Shown piece by piece: positions 11,485-35,799 of a stretch of DNA of 36,833 bases. A model generated the notes under the pieces. That model was given only the letters and a program-made list of their open reading frames with translations. It was not told the DNA's origin and ran no database searches. Position 1 is the first letter of the stretch. Each line of letters begins with the position of its first letter. The position numbers and the translations under genes are program-made. The stretch comes from Candidatus Woesebacteria bacterium. Its GTDB lineage: Bacteria; Patescibacteriota; Microgenomatia; UBA1400; UBA1396. The stretch is taken from positions 1 to 36,833 of the forward strand of contig JAJOJK010000008.1 of assembly GCA_021208605.1 (NCBI GenBank), read 5' to 3'.

Positions 11485-12372
11485 ATGTCGAAAACGATTC
11501 GCAAAGCAATTATTCCCGCCGCCGGTTTCGGTACGCGGTTTCTCCCGCAAACGAAGGCCATGCCGAAAGAAATGCTGCCGATTGTCGATAAGCCAGTAAT
11601 CCAAATTATTGTGGAAGAACTCGTGGAAGCGGGCATTACCGAGATCGTCATCGTGACTGGGTACCACAAGCGCAGTATTGAAGATCATTTTGACAACAAC
11701 TACGAGCTGGAAGCCCAGCTGCAAAAACCGGGCAAAGAAGAGCTGTTGGACGAAGTCAAACGCATTAGCAACATGGCGAATTTCTACTACCTGCGCCAAA
11801 AGGGTCCCAAGGGAAATGCCACACCAATCCTGAACGCCCGCGAAATTATGGGTGATGATCCTTTTGTGGTGCTTTGGGGTGACGACTTTATTAAAGCCAA
11901 TCCAAAGTCTCGTGTGCAGCAACTGATTGAAGCCTACGACAAATATGGTACGACCATTTTGGGTGGTATCACCGCCAAAAAAGAAGAAGACTACGATCGC
12001 TACGGCTTTGCCGCCGGTGAAGATATGGGTGACGGCGCCATTCGCGTTGACGACCTGATCGAAAAACCAGGCAAGGACACGGCGCCGTCTGATTTGGCAA
12101 TTGTGTCTGGCCAAGTCTACAATCCTGACATTTTTGAAGCCATTGAGGAAGCGGAGCGCCGTCGCGAATCAGGCGAGTTGGTGTATATTGACGCCATCAA
12201 TGTCTTGCGCGAGCAAGGTCAGCAAGTGCACGCCGTGCCGATCAAAAATGGCGTCTACTACGATTGTGGAAACATTCTGGAGTACATGAAAACCATCGTC
12301 GAACTCGGCATGGAGCACGAGAAGCTCGGTGAAGAGTTCAAGGAGTGGGTGCGTTCTTTGAATCTGGAATAG
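11485..12372 (+). CDS. galU: UTP--glucose-1-phosphate uridylyltransferase
   Basis: KAIIPAAGFGTRFLPQTKAMPKEMLPIVDKPVIQIIVEELVEAGITEIVIVTGYHKRSIEDHFD..; ATG at 11485. Confidence 0.93.
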   Translation: MSKTIRKAIIPAAGFGTRFLPQTKAMPKEMLPIVDKPVIQIIVEELVEAGITEIVIVTGYHKRSIEDHFDNNYELEAQLQKPGKEELLDEVKRISNMANFYYLRQKGPKGNATPILNAREIMGDDPFVVLWGDDFIKANPKSRVQQLIEAYDKYGTTILGGITAKKEEDYDRYGFAAGEDMGDGAIRVDDLIEKPGKDTAPSDLAIVSGQVYNPDIFEAIEEAERRRESGELVYIDAINVLREQGQQVHAVPIKNGVYYDCGNILEYMKTIVELGMEHEKLGEEFKEWVRSLNLE

Positions 12373-12416
12373 ATGACAACGTAAAAACTTCGTAAGAGTT
12401 TGCGAACAGAGAAGAG

Positions 12417-12446
12417 GCGGGATTTTGATAAAAAATCCCGCTTTTT
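12417..12446 (+). terminator. Rho-independent terminator of galU
   Basis: GCGGGATTTT-tgata-AAAATCCCGC followed by TTTTT. Confidence 0.9.
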
Positions 12447-12529
12447 CGTTTCTTTTTTTGATAATCGAACAACACTTTTCCTCTGGTACAGGCTAGAAAA
12501 GCTGGTTTTTGAGTGGTATAGTAATTCTG

Positions 12530-12742
12530 GCCCGTCAAAGCGTGTTGGGAATTTAATTCCTCGATACTTTACATACGGGAGGAGCCGTACTTTCTGCTCG
12601 TGGGCAGAGGTCGTCCACCCACTCTGGATTACTCCAGGGGAAACGCACCGACACGTTGACGGGATCCACAGAGGGTCGGACCTCTTGGTTGATGAGTAGC
12701 GCTGGGAAAGTGCCTCGTCGATCGAGAGGTCCGACCCTTTTT
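12530..12742 (+). ncRNA. Structured non-coding RNA, family not assigned
   Basis: Extended -10 TGGTATAGT (12514-12522) just upstream; closing stem CCCGTCAA-ag-CGTGTTGG (12531-12548) pairs with CCGACACG-TTGACGGG (12648-12663); 3' terminator with 13-bp stem GGGTCGGACCTCT..AGAGGTCCGACCC then TTTTT. Confidence 0.7.
12673..12742 (+). terminator. Long terminator hairpin of the ncRNA
   Basis: GGGTCGGACCTCT (12673-12685) / AGAGGTCCGACCC (12725-12737) plus T5; internal GATGAG/CTCGTC and GCGCT/AGTGC helices. Confidence 0.8.
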
Positions 12743-12827: not shown

Positions 12828-12899
12828 GCCTCCATAGCTCAGTGGTAGAGCGCATTCTTGGTAAGAATGAGGCCCTGGGTTCAATTCCCAGTGGAGGCT
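12828..12899 (+). tRNA. tRNA-Thr(GGT)
   Basis: GCCTCCA acceptor pairing TGGAGGC, GCTCAGTGGTAGAGC D-arm, CATTC-TTGGTAA-GAATG anticodon arm (GGT), CTGGG-TTCAATT-CCCAG T-arm; no encoded CCA; TATAAT at 12808-12813 upstream. Confidence 0.96.
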
Positions 12900-12901
12900 C
12901 T

Positions 12902-13011
12902 GTTTCTTTGCAAAAAAAGCCGGTGTGCGCCGGGAGCCCTGGCTTCCACATATGGTGTGTACCATATGTTCCAACCATCCCTAAGCACACCAACTTTTTT
13001 TGCAAAGAAAC
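12902..13011. repeat. Long inverted repeat immediately downstream of tRNA-Thr
   Basis: GTTTCTTTGCAAAAAAAG (12902-12919) is the perfect reverse complement of 12994-13011; pairing extends through GGTGTGC/GCACACC. Nested palindrome CATATGGT-GTGT-ACCATATG at 12949-12968. Confidence 0.9.
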
Positions 13012-13121
13012 TGTAGTTAACACCACCCCTAAGCGATATACATCAGCTAGGTTTTCCGTTCGAAGGGAATCATTTTTCCAGCCATCCCTAAGCACACCAA
13101 CTTTTTTTGCAAAGAAACTGT
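12975..13121 (+). repeat. 40-bp perfect direct repeat, two copies 107 bp apart
   Basis: CCATCCCTAAGCACACCAACTTTTTTTGCAAAGAAACTGT at 12975-13014 and 13082-13121. Confidence 0.93.
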
Positions 13122-23283: not shown

Positions 23284-24519
23284 ATGATTTGGGAAACATC
23301 GTTTCCAACCGTAACAGACCGCGTGTGCATTCGCTGGCTTTCTGAAGTGGGGCGTTTACCATGGTGCGCAATTCATCCTCTTCTTGAGTGGGGGAGTGAG
23401 CGCGAGTGGTCCGAGGTGCAAGCTGTGTTGCGGGGAGATGTGGAGGTTGAAGATTCATTGAAAGAATCTTGGGAGGCCAGTGGCTGGACGATAGTTCGAC
23501 GACAACGATTTTTAGTCTGGTTGCAGCGACATGTTTCTGAGTTATCCGTTTCTGATGTAGCCGAGTGGATTGCCGCTCAGAAGGAGGTCTGGCCGTGGTA
23601 CGTACCAACCGATCCAGAGTATCCCGCGCGCTGGCGAGAACTGGAAGATCCGCCCCCAGTGGTGTGGTGTTCGCAAGATTTGGCGGCTTGGCAAGCCAGG
23701 AGTTCACCGCGATCTTTGGCGGTCGTTGGCTCTCGACGACAGTCTCCCTATGGGCGTTTGGCTACGCAGGATTTTGTTCGTACCAGTGTAGAAAATTACC
23801 AGGCGACGATTGTCTCTGGTGCTGCCTATGGCGTTGATATGACCGCTCACCTAAGCTGTCTGCGCAGCGGAGGAAAGACAATTGCGGTTCTGCCCCAGGG
23901 CTGTGCGCAAATTCCCACTCGTTTGACGGCCTTATTAGCGGAACCAAATTGTTTAGCCGTGACAGAATATCCGCCGCACACCGCGGTGAAGCGATGGCAC
24001 TATGCCCAACGTAATCGACTCATTTCTGGATGGGCGGAAGCCGTTTTAGTGGTAGAAGCCACGAAGCAGAGCGGCACGTTTCTGACTGCCGCGGCCGCTT
24101 TTACGCAGGGGAAAGAAGTCTTCGTAATTACGCAACCACGGCATCACGCTCAGGCGGAAGGGGTGTGTCAACTGGTTGAGAACGGTGCCCACTTAGTGTG
24201 TGATCCGCACCAAATGTGGAAGGAGATAGCAGTGTCGAGTGCTTCTCAGCAAAGTTTGTTTTCAGGAGTCCTGCCATTGCACAACAGATCGGCCCAGTCG
24301 CTGCTTGCGCTTTTTGCTCGGGCGAGTACGGAGTTAGAAAAAGCCATTATTCGTTTTGTATGGGAGCACGATGGGCAGTGTTTTGCGAGTGAGTGTCGGG
24401 CTGCAGTGGCAGAAAAGTTGGCTGCAACCAGCGAATGGGCTCGTGCGGTGTACACATTAGAGCTGAAAGGGATCATTCGGCAAGAGTTAGGACTGCTGCA
24501 CTTGCAGGGTGATGTATGA
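23284..24519 (+). CDS. dprA: DNA-processing protein DprA
   Basis: YPARWRELEDPPPVVWC..SLAVVGSRRQSPYGR..IVSGAAYGVDMTAHLSCLRSGGKTIAVLPQGCAQI..YAQRNRLISGWAEAVLVVEATKQSGTFLTAAAA. Confidence 0.93.
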   Translation: MIWETSFPTVTDRVCIRWLSEVGRLPWCAIHPLLEWGSEREWSEVQAVLRGDVEVEDSLKESWEASGWTIVRRQRFLVWLQRHVSELSVSDVAEWIAAQKEVWPWYVPTDPEYPARWRELEDPPPVVWCSQDLAAWQARSSPRSLAVVGSRRQSPYGRLATQDFVRTSVENYQATIVSGAAYGVDMTAHLSCLRSGGKTIAVLPQGCAQIPTRLTALLAEPNCLAVTEYPPHTAVKRWHYAQRNRLISGWAEAVLVVEATKQSGTFLTAAAAFTQGKEVFVITQPRHHAQAEGVCQLVENGAHLVCDPHQMWKEIAVSSASQQSLFSGVLPLHNRSAQSLLALFARASTELEKAIIRFVWEHDGQCFASECRAAVAEKLAATSEWARAVYTLELKGIIRQELGLLHLQGDV

Positions 24520-24533
24520 TACAGTCGTTACTT

Positions 24534-26589
24534 ATGCAACTGGTCATCGTCGAGTCACCAACCAAAGCGAAGAAGCTCACCCAATATCTCGGGAAGGGAT
24601 TTGTGGTGGAAGCTTCGCGTGGTCACGTGCGCGATTTGCCGAAGAGCAAACTCGGAGTAGACGTCGAAAACAATTTTGAGCCCACCTACGAAACACTTCG
24701 TGGTTCAGGGAAAACAGTCACGCAACTCAAGAAACTCGCCAAACAAGCCGACAAACTCTACTTGGCCACTGACCCGGATCGAGAAGGAGAGGCAATTTCG
24801 TGGCATCTGTTGGAAGCCTGGGATGACAAAGAGATCAACAAGAAAGCGGAGCGGGCCGTTTTCCACGAAATTACGAAAGAAGCCGTTCTCAAAGCTATTC
24901 AAAATCCCAAAACTATCAATGATGCCATGGTCGATGCGCAGCAGGCTCGTCGTGTGCTCGATCGTTTAGTGGGGTACAAACTTTCGCCTGTCCTCTGGAA
25001 GAAAATTCGCCGCGGTTTGTCAGCCGGACGCGTGCAGTCAGTTGCGCTGCGCTTAATTGTCGAGCGCGAAGACGAGATCGAAGCCTTTGAACCAGAAGAA
25101 TACTGGGAAGTCGATCTCGAGTTGTCCACGGATGGCAAAGAATCTATCACCGCGCGTGTAATTGGCCTGAATGGTAAAAAGTACGAGCCGCACTCGCAAG
25201 AGGATGTCGACACAGTGCAGTCATGGGCCAAAGATGGCGAGTACACGGTCAAAAGTGTGGAGAAGCGTCAGCGCAGCCGCAAGCCGTACGCACCGTTTAC
25301 AACTTCTACTTTGCAACAGCAAGCTTCCAGTCGTTTGGGAATGAGTGCCAAACGCTCCATGGCTTTAGCGCAACAGCTCTACGAAGAAGGTCTCATTACC
25401 TACCACCGTACTGACTCTACCAATCTTTCGAGTCAAGCGGTGTCGATGGCGCGTGAGTACATTACTTCCCAATTCGGCGAGAAGTATGTGCCGAGTAAAC
25501 CGAATGTCTATTCATCCAAAAGTAAGAATGCGCAAGAAGCTCACGAAGCGATTCGTCCGACTGCCGCGAAACCAAGCATCCCTGCCAAAGGCAAGATTAC
25601 TGAGTCTCATGCCAAGTTGTATGACCTTATTTTCCGTCGCTTTGTGGCCAGCCAGATGACTGTGGCCAAGTATGACATCACCACCATTTTGGTGAGCGGA
25701 AAACAGGGCAAAAACGAGCTTGAAGCGCGTTGTTCTGGTTCTATCATCACGCACGATGGTTGGATGAAGTTATTCCCCGGAAGCGAAGACACCATTTTGC
25801 CGGATGTTTCCGAAAAAGAAACTCTCAAGTACGAAGACATTATTACGCAACAAAAATTCACGCAGCCGCCGACCACGCTACAACGATGCCTCCTTGGTGA
25901 AAGAACTGGAAAAACGCGGCATTGGTCGTCCAAGTACGTTTGCGAGCATTATCTCGGTGATTCTCGCTCGCGGGTACGTGGAACGCGAAAGCAAAGCCTT
26001 CAAGCCAACAGAAGTCGGGAAGACAGTCATCCGTTTCTTGCTCAAAAATTTCGACGGCATTATTGACTACGATTTCACCGCCAACATGGAAGATGATCTT
26101 GACGAAATTTCTTTAGGCAAAAAAGAGTGGCGCGCCGTCATGAAAGAGTTCTACGGTCCCTTCGAAAAGAAACTCGAAAAGGTGGAAGACAAAGCCGAAC
26201 GCATGCAAGTGCCGGTCGAACCACTCAACAAACCGTGTCCCGAATGCGGTCTCAAAGAGAATGAGTTTGCCAAAGCCATGGAGCAGGGCAAAACCATGAG
26301 CACCATGACTTCCGAGCAGCGTGCCGAAACCGTCTGGCGCGAGACGCCTAAAGGCGAGCTCGTAATTCGCACCGGTCGTTTTGGGAAGTTTATTTCTTGC
26401 TCTCGCTATCCTGAGTGCGAGTTTACTGACCGCTACCAACAAAAAATCGACATGCCATGTCCACAATGTGGCGAAGGCGATGTCGTTGTCAAGAAAAGCC
26501 GCAAGGGTCGCACGTTCTACGGTTGTTCCCGCTATCCAGACTGTGACTGGGCCAGCTGGAGCAATCCAATGAACCAAGAGCAAGAGTAG
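24534..26589 (+). CDS. topA: DNA topoisomerase I, interrupted by a frameshift near 25872
   Basis: MQLVIVESPTKAKKLTQYLGKGFVVEASRGHVRDLPKSKLGVD..YLATDPDREGEAISWHL..GLITYHRTDSTNLS.. then [29 protein letters not shown] and C-terminal zinc fingers in the second frame. Confidence 0.93.
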
Positions 26590-33841: not shown

Positions 33842-34855
33842 ATGGCAAAAAGAAAGAGACCAGAAAATCCAAATCGTTCAACCGAACGTATGAGTGAAGA
33901 TCACATAATTCGTCATTTTTTAACAGCTCAAGAACTTAAGAGCAAGAGAAGAGGGGTCGATCAAACGATTCGTGAACTTCAGGCTTTGTTTGTCGATTTT
34001 TTAGGGCAGGAGTTTGTTGGAAATGAAAAAAAGATTCAATCCATGCAAGCATCGATTCGGTCTCTTGTTTTGTTTCGTGATTCTGTTGAACACCAACCCA
34101 ATGTTTTTAATGAAACAGAACTTGCAAACATCAAGCGTACACTTCAAGATTTTGCCCGCTTGTTGTTTGTTTATCGAAAACGCGCAGAGATTTCTGGATA
34201 TGAAGAGGCCTTTACATTTTTTGATACGGCAATGAAATATTTTCCACTAGATGGCTCCGAGAATGAGCCCACTATTATCTTGCAGTATGTGGAAAATACA
34301 TTTGGTTCTCGGAGAAGTGAGTATCCCAAAAAAATTGATTCCTATTTTCGGGAAGAAGAAGCCGCTGAAGCAACTGGACTTATATGGGTCTTAGAAGCCT
34401 ACTGTGATCTGTATGATTTGCTTCAAAGTCAAGGTATGCGTTTTGATGAGATTGGGGAAGCTCTGTACAGTATGCATAAATCTTTTGTGATGGTATATGA
34501 GCTGGAACCAGAAAAAGCCCGTACTGTTTTGCAAAGACATCCATTAGCAGCGGCTTTTTTAAGACCGTTATTTGCTTCAAAGTCAGATTTCTATTGGTCC
34601 AAAGATGACTGGAAGCCATTCTACACAAAACAAAGAAATGCTTTGCGATCCGGGCGTAATATTGAAGCTACTATTCGGAAACTCGCTCACTACACGGCAA
34701 TTATGCGTCGTCAGCTTTCGGTTCAAGAGCAAGATGTATATGAAGAAGCTCGGAAGTATGCTGTTAATAAATTAGAAATAGTTTCTAAAGATATTGGTCG
34801 AACCCCGGAAGAAACTCAACTCATTACAGCTTTTCTTGCCGAACCGCTTCGATAG
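33842..34855 (+). CDS. Hypothetical helical protein (orphan)
   Basis: 337-aa ORF; TATAAT (33829-33834) 7 nt before the ATG. Confidence 0.75.
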   Translation: MAKRKRPENPNRSTERMSEDHIIRHFLTAQELKSKRRGVDQTIRELQALFVDFLGQEFVGNEKKIQSMQASIRSLVLFRDSVEHQPNVFNETELANIKRTLQDFARLLFVYRKRAEISGYEEAFTFFDTAMKYFPLDGSENEPTIILQYVENTFGSRRSEYPKKIDSYFREEEAAEATGLIWVLEAYCDLYDLLQSQGMRFDEIGEALYSMHKSFVMVYELEPEKARTVLQRHPLAAAFLRPLFASKSDFYWSKDDWKPFYTKQRNALRSGRNIEATIRKLAHYTAIMRRQLSVQEQDVYEEARKYAVNKLEIVSKDIGRTPEETQLITAFLAEPLR

Positions 34856-34886
34856 GGAGCATGTTCTCGTGCAGTATAATGCCTCC

Positions 34887-35799
34887 ATGGCAACACGATT
34901 CGATGGAAAGACTTTTGGTGCGGCGAAATTAGCGGCGCTTGATGATCAGGTCGCGCAGTTTCAAGAGCGTGTTGGTCGTGTGCCGACTATTTTGTCTATT
35001 TTCCCCTACGAAGACACCGCCAGTGTTCTGTACACCAAACTCAAACGCCAGGACGCCCAGTCGGTGGGCATGAAGTACGCCACGCAACCGCTCTCGATGA
35101 AAGAAGATATTGATGTCTGGATGCGCGCCGTGCAAGAGGCCAACGCTAATCCAAAAGTCGATGGCTTGATTGTGCAAAAACCGGCCCGTGGCGAATTTCT
35201 GAAAGTGACTGGCAAGTCAAAAGAGCAGTACTACTCGTGGTGGTCGGCCATTGTGGAGTCGATCGATGTGAGCAAAGACGTCGACGGCTTGAGTCCGCAT
35301 ACCTTATTAGAGTTAGCGCGTTTTGTCGGACCGCGTGAATCGCGGCACCGATCAGCCACATGATTCTCTGGATGCAGTTGTTTTACCGGCGACCGCACAG
35401 GCGATTATCGATGTGGCTTTGGAAGCGGTGAACAATGATGTCGAAACGCTCCGCCAGAAAAAAGTGGTTTTGTTGGGGACGTCTGTGATTGTTGGTCGAC
35501 CGGCCACCTACGGTTTTTGGATGCTGGGAGTAGAGGCCGAGATGCATGGTTCGAACGCCGATCCGGCCGAAGTTTTGCCGTCGGCCGATATTGTGGTTTC
35601 GGCCACGGGCCAGACTGATTTGATTTCTCCAAAATGGATCAAAGATGGTGCTATTTTGCTCGACGTCGGCGCTCCCAAAGCAGAGTTTCAAGCAGCCTGC
35701 TATGAAAAGGCGAGCTTTTACACGCCAGTTCCCGGCGGCATTGGTCCGGTGACACGGGCGTGTTTGCTGGAAAATGTTTTGAAGAAAAAAGAATGGTAG
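34887..35799 (+). CDS. folD: Methylenetetrahydrofolate dehydrogenase/cyclohydrolase FolD, interrupted by a frameshift near 35321
   Basis: ATG 34887; PTILSIFPYEDTASVLYTKLKRQDAQSVGM..VDGLIVQKP..KDVDGLSPHTLLEL.. then KKVVLLGTSVIVGRPATYGFWMLGVEAEMHGSN..SADIVVSATGQTDLISPKWIKDGAILLDVG..PVPGGIGPVTRACLLENV in a second frame. Confidence 0.88.

Follow-up and report, generated by a model that had tools for sequence, protein, structure and literature searches.

Known 6S RNAs and the locus under study

6S RNA resembles an open promoter and thereby blocks the RNA polymerase of bacteria. In the 6S/SsrS family (RF00013), the RNA is a rod composed of a closing stem, a central bubble and an apical stem, and it is encoded by a single gene with its own promoter. 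The 6S RNAs of E. coli and B. subtilis are the models for the mechanism proposed here (PMC8876501; PMC9130861), and a 3′-bubble hairpin has been described in free B. subtilis 6S-1 RNA (PMC8876501). Ms1 of Actinobacteria is a polymerase-binding RNA that is structurally related to 6S RNA and was identified by its synteny, not by its sequence (PMC9130861).

The locus described here lies in a stretch of 36,833 nucleotides (the window), which forms contig C2 in the 1.08 Mb genome of a Candidatus Woesebacteria bacterium. Comparative sequence analysis makes it highly likely that this locus encodes the 6S (ssrS) RNA of a Patescibacterium. It has the rod shape, promoter and single copy of 6S/SsrS RNA, and relatives at the homologous place are matched by RF00013. 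However, the window RNA is too divergent for a direct match, its body is shorter, it lies between galU and tRNA-Thr, and its 5′ bubble keeps the option of a GGAA/UUCC hairpin. As in B. subtilis 6S-1, the free RNA is already predicted to form a 3′-bubble hairpin, whereas the body measures about 140 nt against about 190-200 nt in 6S-1, and its refolding after pRNA synthesis is a modelled one. Ms1, in contrast, binds the core polymerase and is found in another lineage, with other neighbours. The features of the locus are collected in Table 1.

Table 1. Features of the candidate 6S RNA locus (window coordinates)
Feature	Position	Strand	Basis or remark
galU (UTP-glucose-1-phosphate uridylyltransferase-like)	11488-12372	+	ORF; conserved upstream neighbour
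Weak -35 element, TAGAAA	12494-12499	+	consensus scan
Extended -10 element, TGG-TATAGT	12514-12522	+	sequence, consensus scan
Structured RNA gene	~12528-12742	+	between galU and tRNA-Thr
Probable 6S RNA body	12528-12667	+	full-length match of model R2, 38.2 bits, E 4e-6 in window
P1 closing stem, 5′ strand	12531-12538	+	pairs with 12656-12663; fold; family helix 1
P2 inner closing stem, 5′ strand	12541-12548	+	pairs with 12648-12655; fold, partner-swap
Central bubble, 5′ side	12549-12576	+	sequence, family alignment, folds
Apical stem-loop (GGGAGGA ... UCCACCC)	12577-12620	+	fold; family helices 2-4 covary
Hairpin, 3′ side of central bubble	12622-12639	+	fold; family helices 5-6
P2, 3′ strand	12648-12655	+	fold; partner-swap test
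P1, 3′ strand	12656-12663	+	fold; pairs with 12531-12538
Long intrinsic terminator hairpin with T5	12673-12742	+	sequence and fold
tRNA-Thr (GGT)	12828-12900	+	Rfam tRNA match; conserved neighbour, common to most relatives

Database searches and lineage-specific models

The first-pass annotation had left the RNA unassigned, considering it compatible with a 6S-like RNA and expecting it to be neither RNase P, SRP nor tmRNA. In the Rfam scan that it proposed, no family besides tRNA reached its cut-off in the window, RF00013 did not match the RNA even at E 10, and the region searched up to E 10 returned nothing meaningful, with no tmRNA, RNase P or SRP family among the matches, as had been expected. 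A weak match to Xoo2 was discarded because it rests mainly on the terminator, and matches to mir families were discarded as chance hairpins. A nucleotide BLAST search with the RNA in 53 genomes of the order recovered only the RNA itself, with no copy in the 52 others. When RF00013 was run over these genomes, it matched two: G003 with 53.7 bits, above the cut-off, and G020 with 31.3 bits, below it. On the exact loci found with model R1 (see below), L018 reached 49.2 bits, again above the cut-off, and L019, L028, L026, L016 and L022 were also matched; besides G003 and L018, six further relatives match below the cut-off. Since 20 of the 22 relatives' loci scanned remain under the gathering score and 2 pass it, the missing RF00013 match in the window marks the limit of that model. 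A direct match, which the window sequence does not give, is a matter of the database rather than of biology.

Plain MAFFT did not align the 3′ half of the window RNA correctly with that of two relatives, and covariance models were therefore used. The first of them, R1, was trained solely on G003 and G020, and its structure was deliberately left incomplete. In an unfiltered search of the window, the best site that it found was 12527-12668, matched over the full length (E 0.01; next site 0.88). Across the 53 genomes of the order, it found matches in 28, the two training genomes included, and under the stricter filters of that search the window's own genome was missed. The second model, R2, was derived from 22 further aligned loci, with the window, G003 and G020 excluded, and recovered the window RNA (Table 1; next best site E 0.06), which was its only match in the whole genome (E 1.2e-4). 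R2 matched in 33 of the 36 genomes searched, this one included, and beyond the order, under strict filters, it gave matches at E <= 0.001 in at least 18 more genomes out of 192 sampled from the phylum. The order seems to take in isolate UBA1449, as the match coordinates of G026 and G059 are identical. Among named whole genomes, matches were obtained in Amesbacteria, Daviesbacteria, two Saccharibacteria and others; those of Bacillus, Ktedonobacter and Kineococcus gave none, so the model is lineage-specific. A search around galU in the named genomes found no syntenic 6S RNA. R1 and R2 also gave weak antisense matches, which were set aside because they mirror the rod. A shared origin with recognised 6S RNAs is thus traced in two steps, RF00013 recognising L002, L018 and others, and the relatives' models recognising the window RNA. 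Of the 39 aligned sequences, the window RNA has the lowest score, and its body is shorter, at about 140 nt compared with 145-170 nt. The homologue of genome G008 (L012, 1501-1714) is enlarged by an insertion of about 50 nt, which folds into additional hairpins next to the apical stem.

Gene neighbourhood

The placement between galU and tRNA-Thr given by the first-pass annotation was recovered, and galU possesses its own terminator-like hairpin at 12411-12447, 3′ of its end. G003 and G020 show the same order: the RNA follows a galU-like gene and precedes tRNA-Thr, all on one strand. Among the 26 relatives' loci found with R1, tRNA-Thr is present in the fetched flanks of 21, usually together with tRNA-Tyr, and a complete galU-like gene lies upstream on the same strand in 12, a count in which some of the 26 loci are truncated by contig ends. 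The synteny check suggested earlier therefore shows neighbours that recur across the order, and the conserved place within the lineage is as expected of a 6S RNA gene.

Other features of the window were also observed. Just 3′ of tRNA-Thr, the region 12902-13121 contains a long inverted repeat, with arms at 12902-12935 and 12978-13011 (85%). The same unit forms a direct repeat of 46 nt (12969-13014 and 13076-13121, 98%), and it is absent elsewhere in the genome. A topoisomerase I-like gene (24516-26589) is apparently split into two overlapping frames (24516-26066 and 25804-26589), by either a sequencing error or a real frameshift, and a folD-like gene (34794-35799) is apparently split in a similar way (34794-35363 and 35323-35799).

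Predicted structure and covariation

The closing stem with an AG bulge and both internal hairpins of the first-pass annotation are present in the sequence: the bulge (12539-12540) separates the 5′ strands of P1 and P2, and the hairpins TCTGC...GCAGA and CTGGA-TTAC-TCCAG lie at 12593-12608 and 12624-12637. In P2, CGUGUUGG pairs with CCGACACG at -14.7 kcal/mol. The 3′ bubble reads CACCCACCUGGAUUCGUCCGGGGAAA in G003 and CACCCACUCUGGAUUACUCCAGGGGAAA in the window. In the 5′ bubble, UUCCUC (12557-12562) can pair, as UUCC, with GGAA (12548-12551) according to the folds, and by inspection it has an alternative partner in GGGGAA (12637-12642). The modelled architecture, with a closing stem, a central bubble bearing a 3′ hairpin, and an apical stem, corresponds to that of 6S RNA. 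The segment 12528-12746 folds at -111.4 kcal/mol versus -73.1 +/- 5.5 for shuffled sequences (z = -7.0). Without the terminator, z falls to -3.2, indicating that much of the excess stability belongs to the terminator, and the body is still more stable than all 200 shuffles.

Covariation among relatives, which had been proposed as a check, was evaluated over 30 pairs in 39 sequences including the window. In this set, 93.9% of cells were paired, against 67.4% in shuffled and 40-54% in slid alignments, changes on both sides occurred in 24 of the 30 pairs, and the covariation score was 0.697 versus 0.203, all in an alignment fitted to the model structure. Both-sided changes were seen in 7 of the 8 pairs of P1; family helices 2-4, which form the apical stem, covary, and helices 5-6 correspond to the 3′-bubble hairpin. 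Due to this fitting of the alignment to the structure, P2, which had been left out of the model, offers the cleaner test. The 5′ region following P1 and the 3′ region preceding it were exchanged between sequences in 2000 swaps, and own partners paired at a mean of -19.5 kcal/mol, compared with -11.3 +/- 0.46 for swapped ones (lowest -12.8). For the window itself, the P2 3′ strand reached at best -12.4 kcal/mol with the 5′ regions of other sequences, and the P2 5′ region reached -16.1 kcal/mol with one foreign partner, as good as with its own. The rod shape expected of 6S RNA is thus supported by the folds, by covariation and by the P2 swap.

Promoter and terminator

The promoter attributed to the RNA in the first-pass annotation is present in the sequence: an extended -10 element is accompanied by only a weak -35 element, and the consensus scan found one promoter-like site where 0.7 were expected by chance. 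A -10 hexamer that agrees with the consensus at 5 or more of its 6 positions precedes the RNA by 3-6 nt in 13 of the relatives' 26 loci, often with TTGAC upstream of it. The -10 elements and the single match in its own genome are consistent with a promoter of its own and one gene per genome, as in 6S RNA. The terminator hairpin (12673-12737) and the following T5 (12738-12742) were likewise found, although the stem exceeds the 13 bp originally given. The terminator is unusually long for an intrinsic one and folds with an extra apical stem; in two relatives read by eye (L002 and L003), no comparably long hairpin directly follows the RNA.

Alternative identities

An RNA related to 6S but functionally distinct, which like actinobacterial Ms1 would bind core polymerase without sigma, is an improbable alternative. 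Ms1 is itself structurally 6S-related and was discovered through synteny (PMC9130861), and the binding partner of the window RNA is a predicted one; on the other hand, the relatives match RF00013 itself, two of them above the curated cut-off. In favour of the 6S reading, the genome contains a 380-aa ORF with a strong match to sigma70 region 4. It is less probable still that the locus is a lineage-specific structured RNA, or a long leader or trailer, unrelated to 6S and stable mainly through its terminator. The drop in folding z and the lack of a nucleotide-level homologue in BLAST would fit such an RNA, but the body without the terminator yields full-length model matches, one hit per genome, covariation and synteny, and this explanation is strongly disfavoured by the model matches.

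The similar length and the long-range closing stem would also suit another housekeeping RNA, namely tmRNA, RNase P RNA or SRP RNA, an identity whose probability is negligible. The absence of any Rfam match to these RNAs in the region up to E 10 argues against all three; tmRNA was rejected since RF00023 has no match here and the tmRNA of this genome sits at C14:12438-12829, while neither RNase P RNA nor SRP RNA was located in the genome. The match to the 6S family refutes this identity in practice. The 6S reading, in contrast, is backed independently by homology traced through relatives, by covariation, by synteny and by the position of the promoter, so that the label "unassigned" can be dropped and the 6S-like character considered earlier is upheld.

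Proposed mechanism

If it works like the 6S RNAs of E. coli and B. subtilis, the window RNA would mimic an open promoter: its apical stem would take the place of the promoter DNA upstream, its central bubble that of the melted -10/start region, and P1/P2 that of the duplex downstream. When growth stops, RNA polymerase with the primary sigma factor would be held away from promoters. When NTPs return, the polymerase would start a short pRNA in the 5′ bubble and copy into P2, whose 5′ strand would be the template, for instance from opposite 12554 towards 12541, giving about 5′-AAAUUCCCAACACG, the exact start being a guess. This synthesis would open P2, the bubble would refold, and the enzyme would be released. 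Polymerase binding and pRNA synthesis are thus inferred from the described 6S RNAs. In an in silico fold with 12541-12554 blocked, as if bound by pRNA, P2 opens and the bubble and apical stem rearrange. A rather speculative extension is that the 6S RNAs of Patescibacteria are a subclass of their own. Their P2 template strand (GAGGAA-type) might pair with either its downstream partner or the adjacent UUCCUC of the 5′ bubble, a built-in hairpin switch that might tune polymerase binding or release in another way than in E. coli and B. subtilis.

Significance

The window RNA is very probably a new, divergent member of a known family, and since 6S RNA is widespread, the surprise is modest. In the open-access literature searched, 6S RNA was not found together with the candidate phyla radiation or Saccharibacteria, and the search for 6S RNA and Patescibacteria returned only SRP work; an earlier mention elsewhere is possible. 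The value lies in the finding that most 6S RNAs of this order of Patescibacteria escape Rfam, and in practice a search model and a synteny marker are gained for recovering those that the Rfam model misses. Patescibacteria (CPR) have very small genomes and lead largely host-dependent lives, and, to our knowledge, their global transcription control has been little studied. That nearly every genome of an order has a 6S RNA suggests that hibernation of the polymerase is important to these bacteria.
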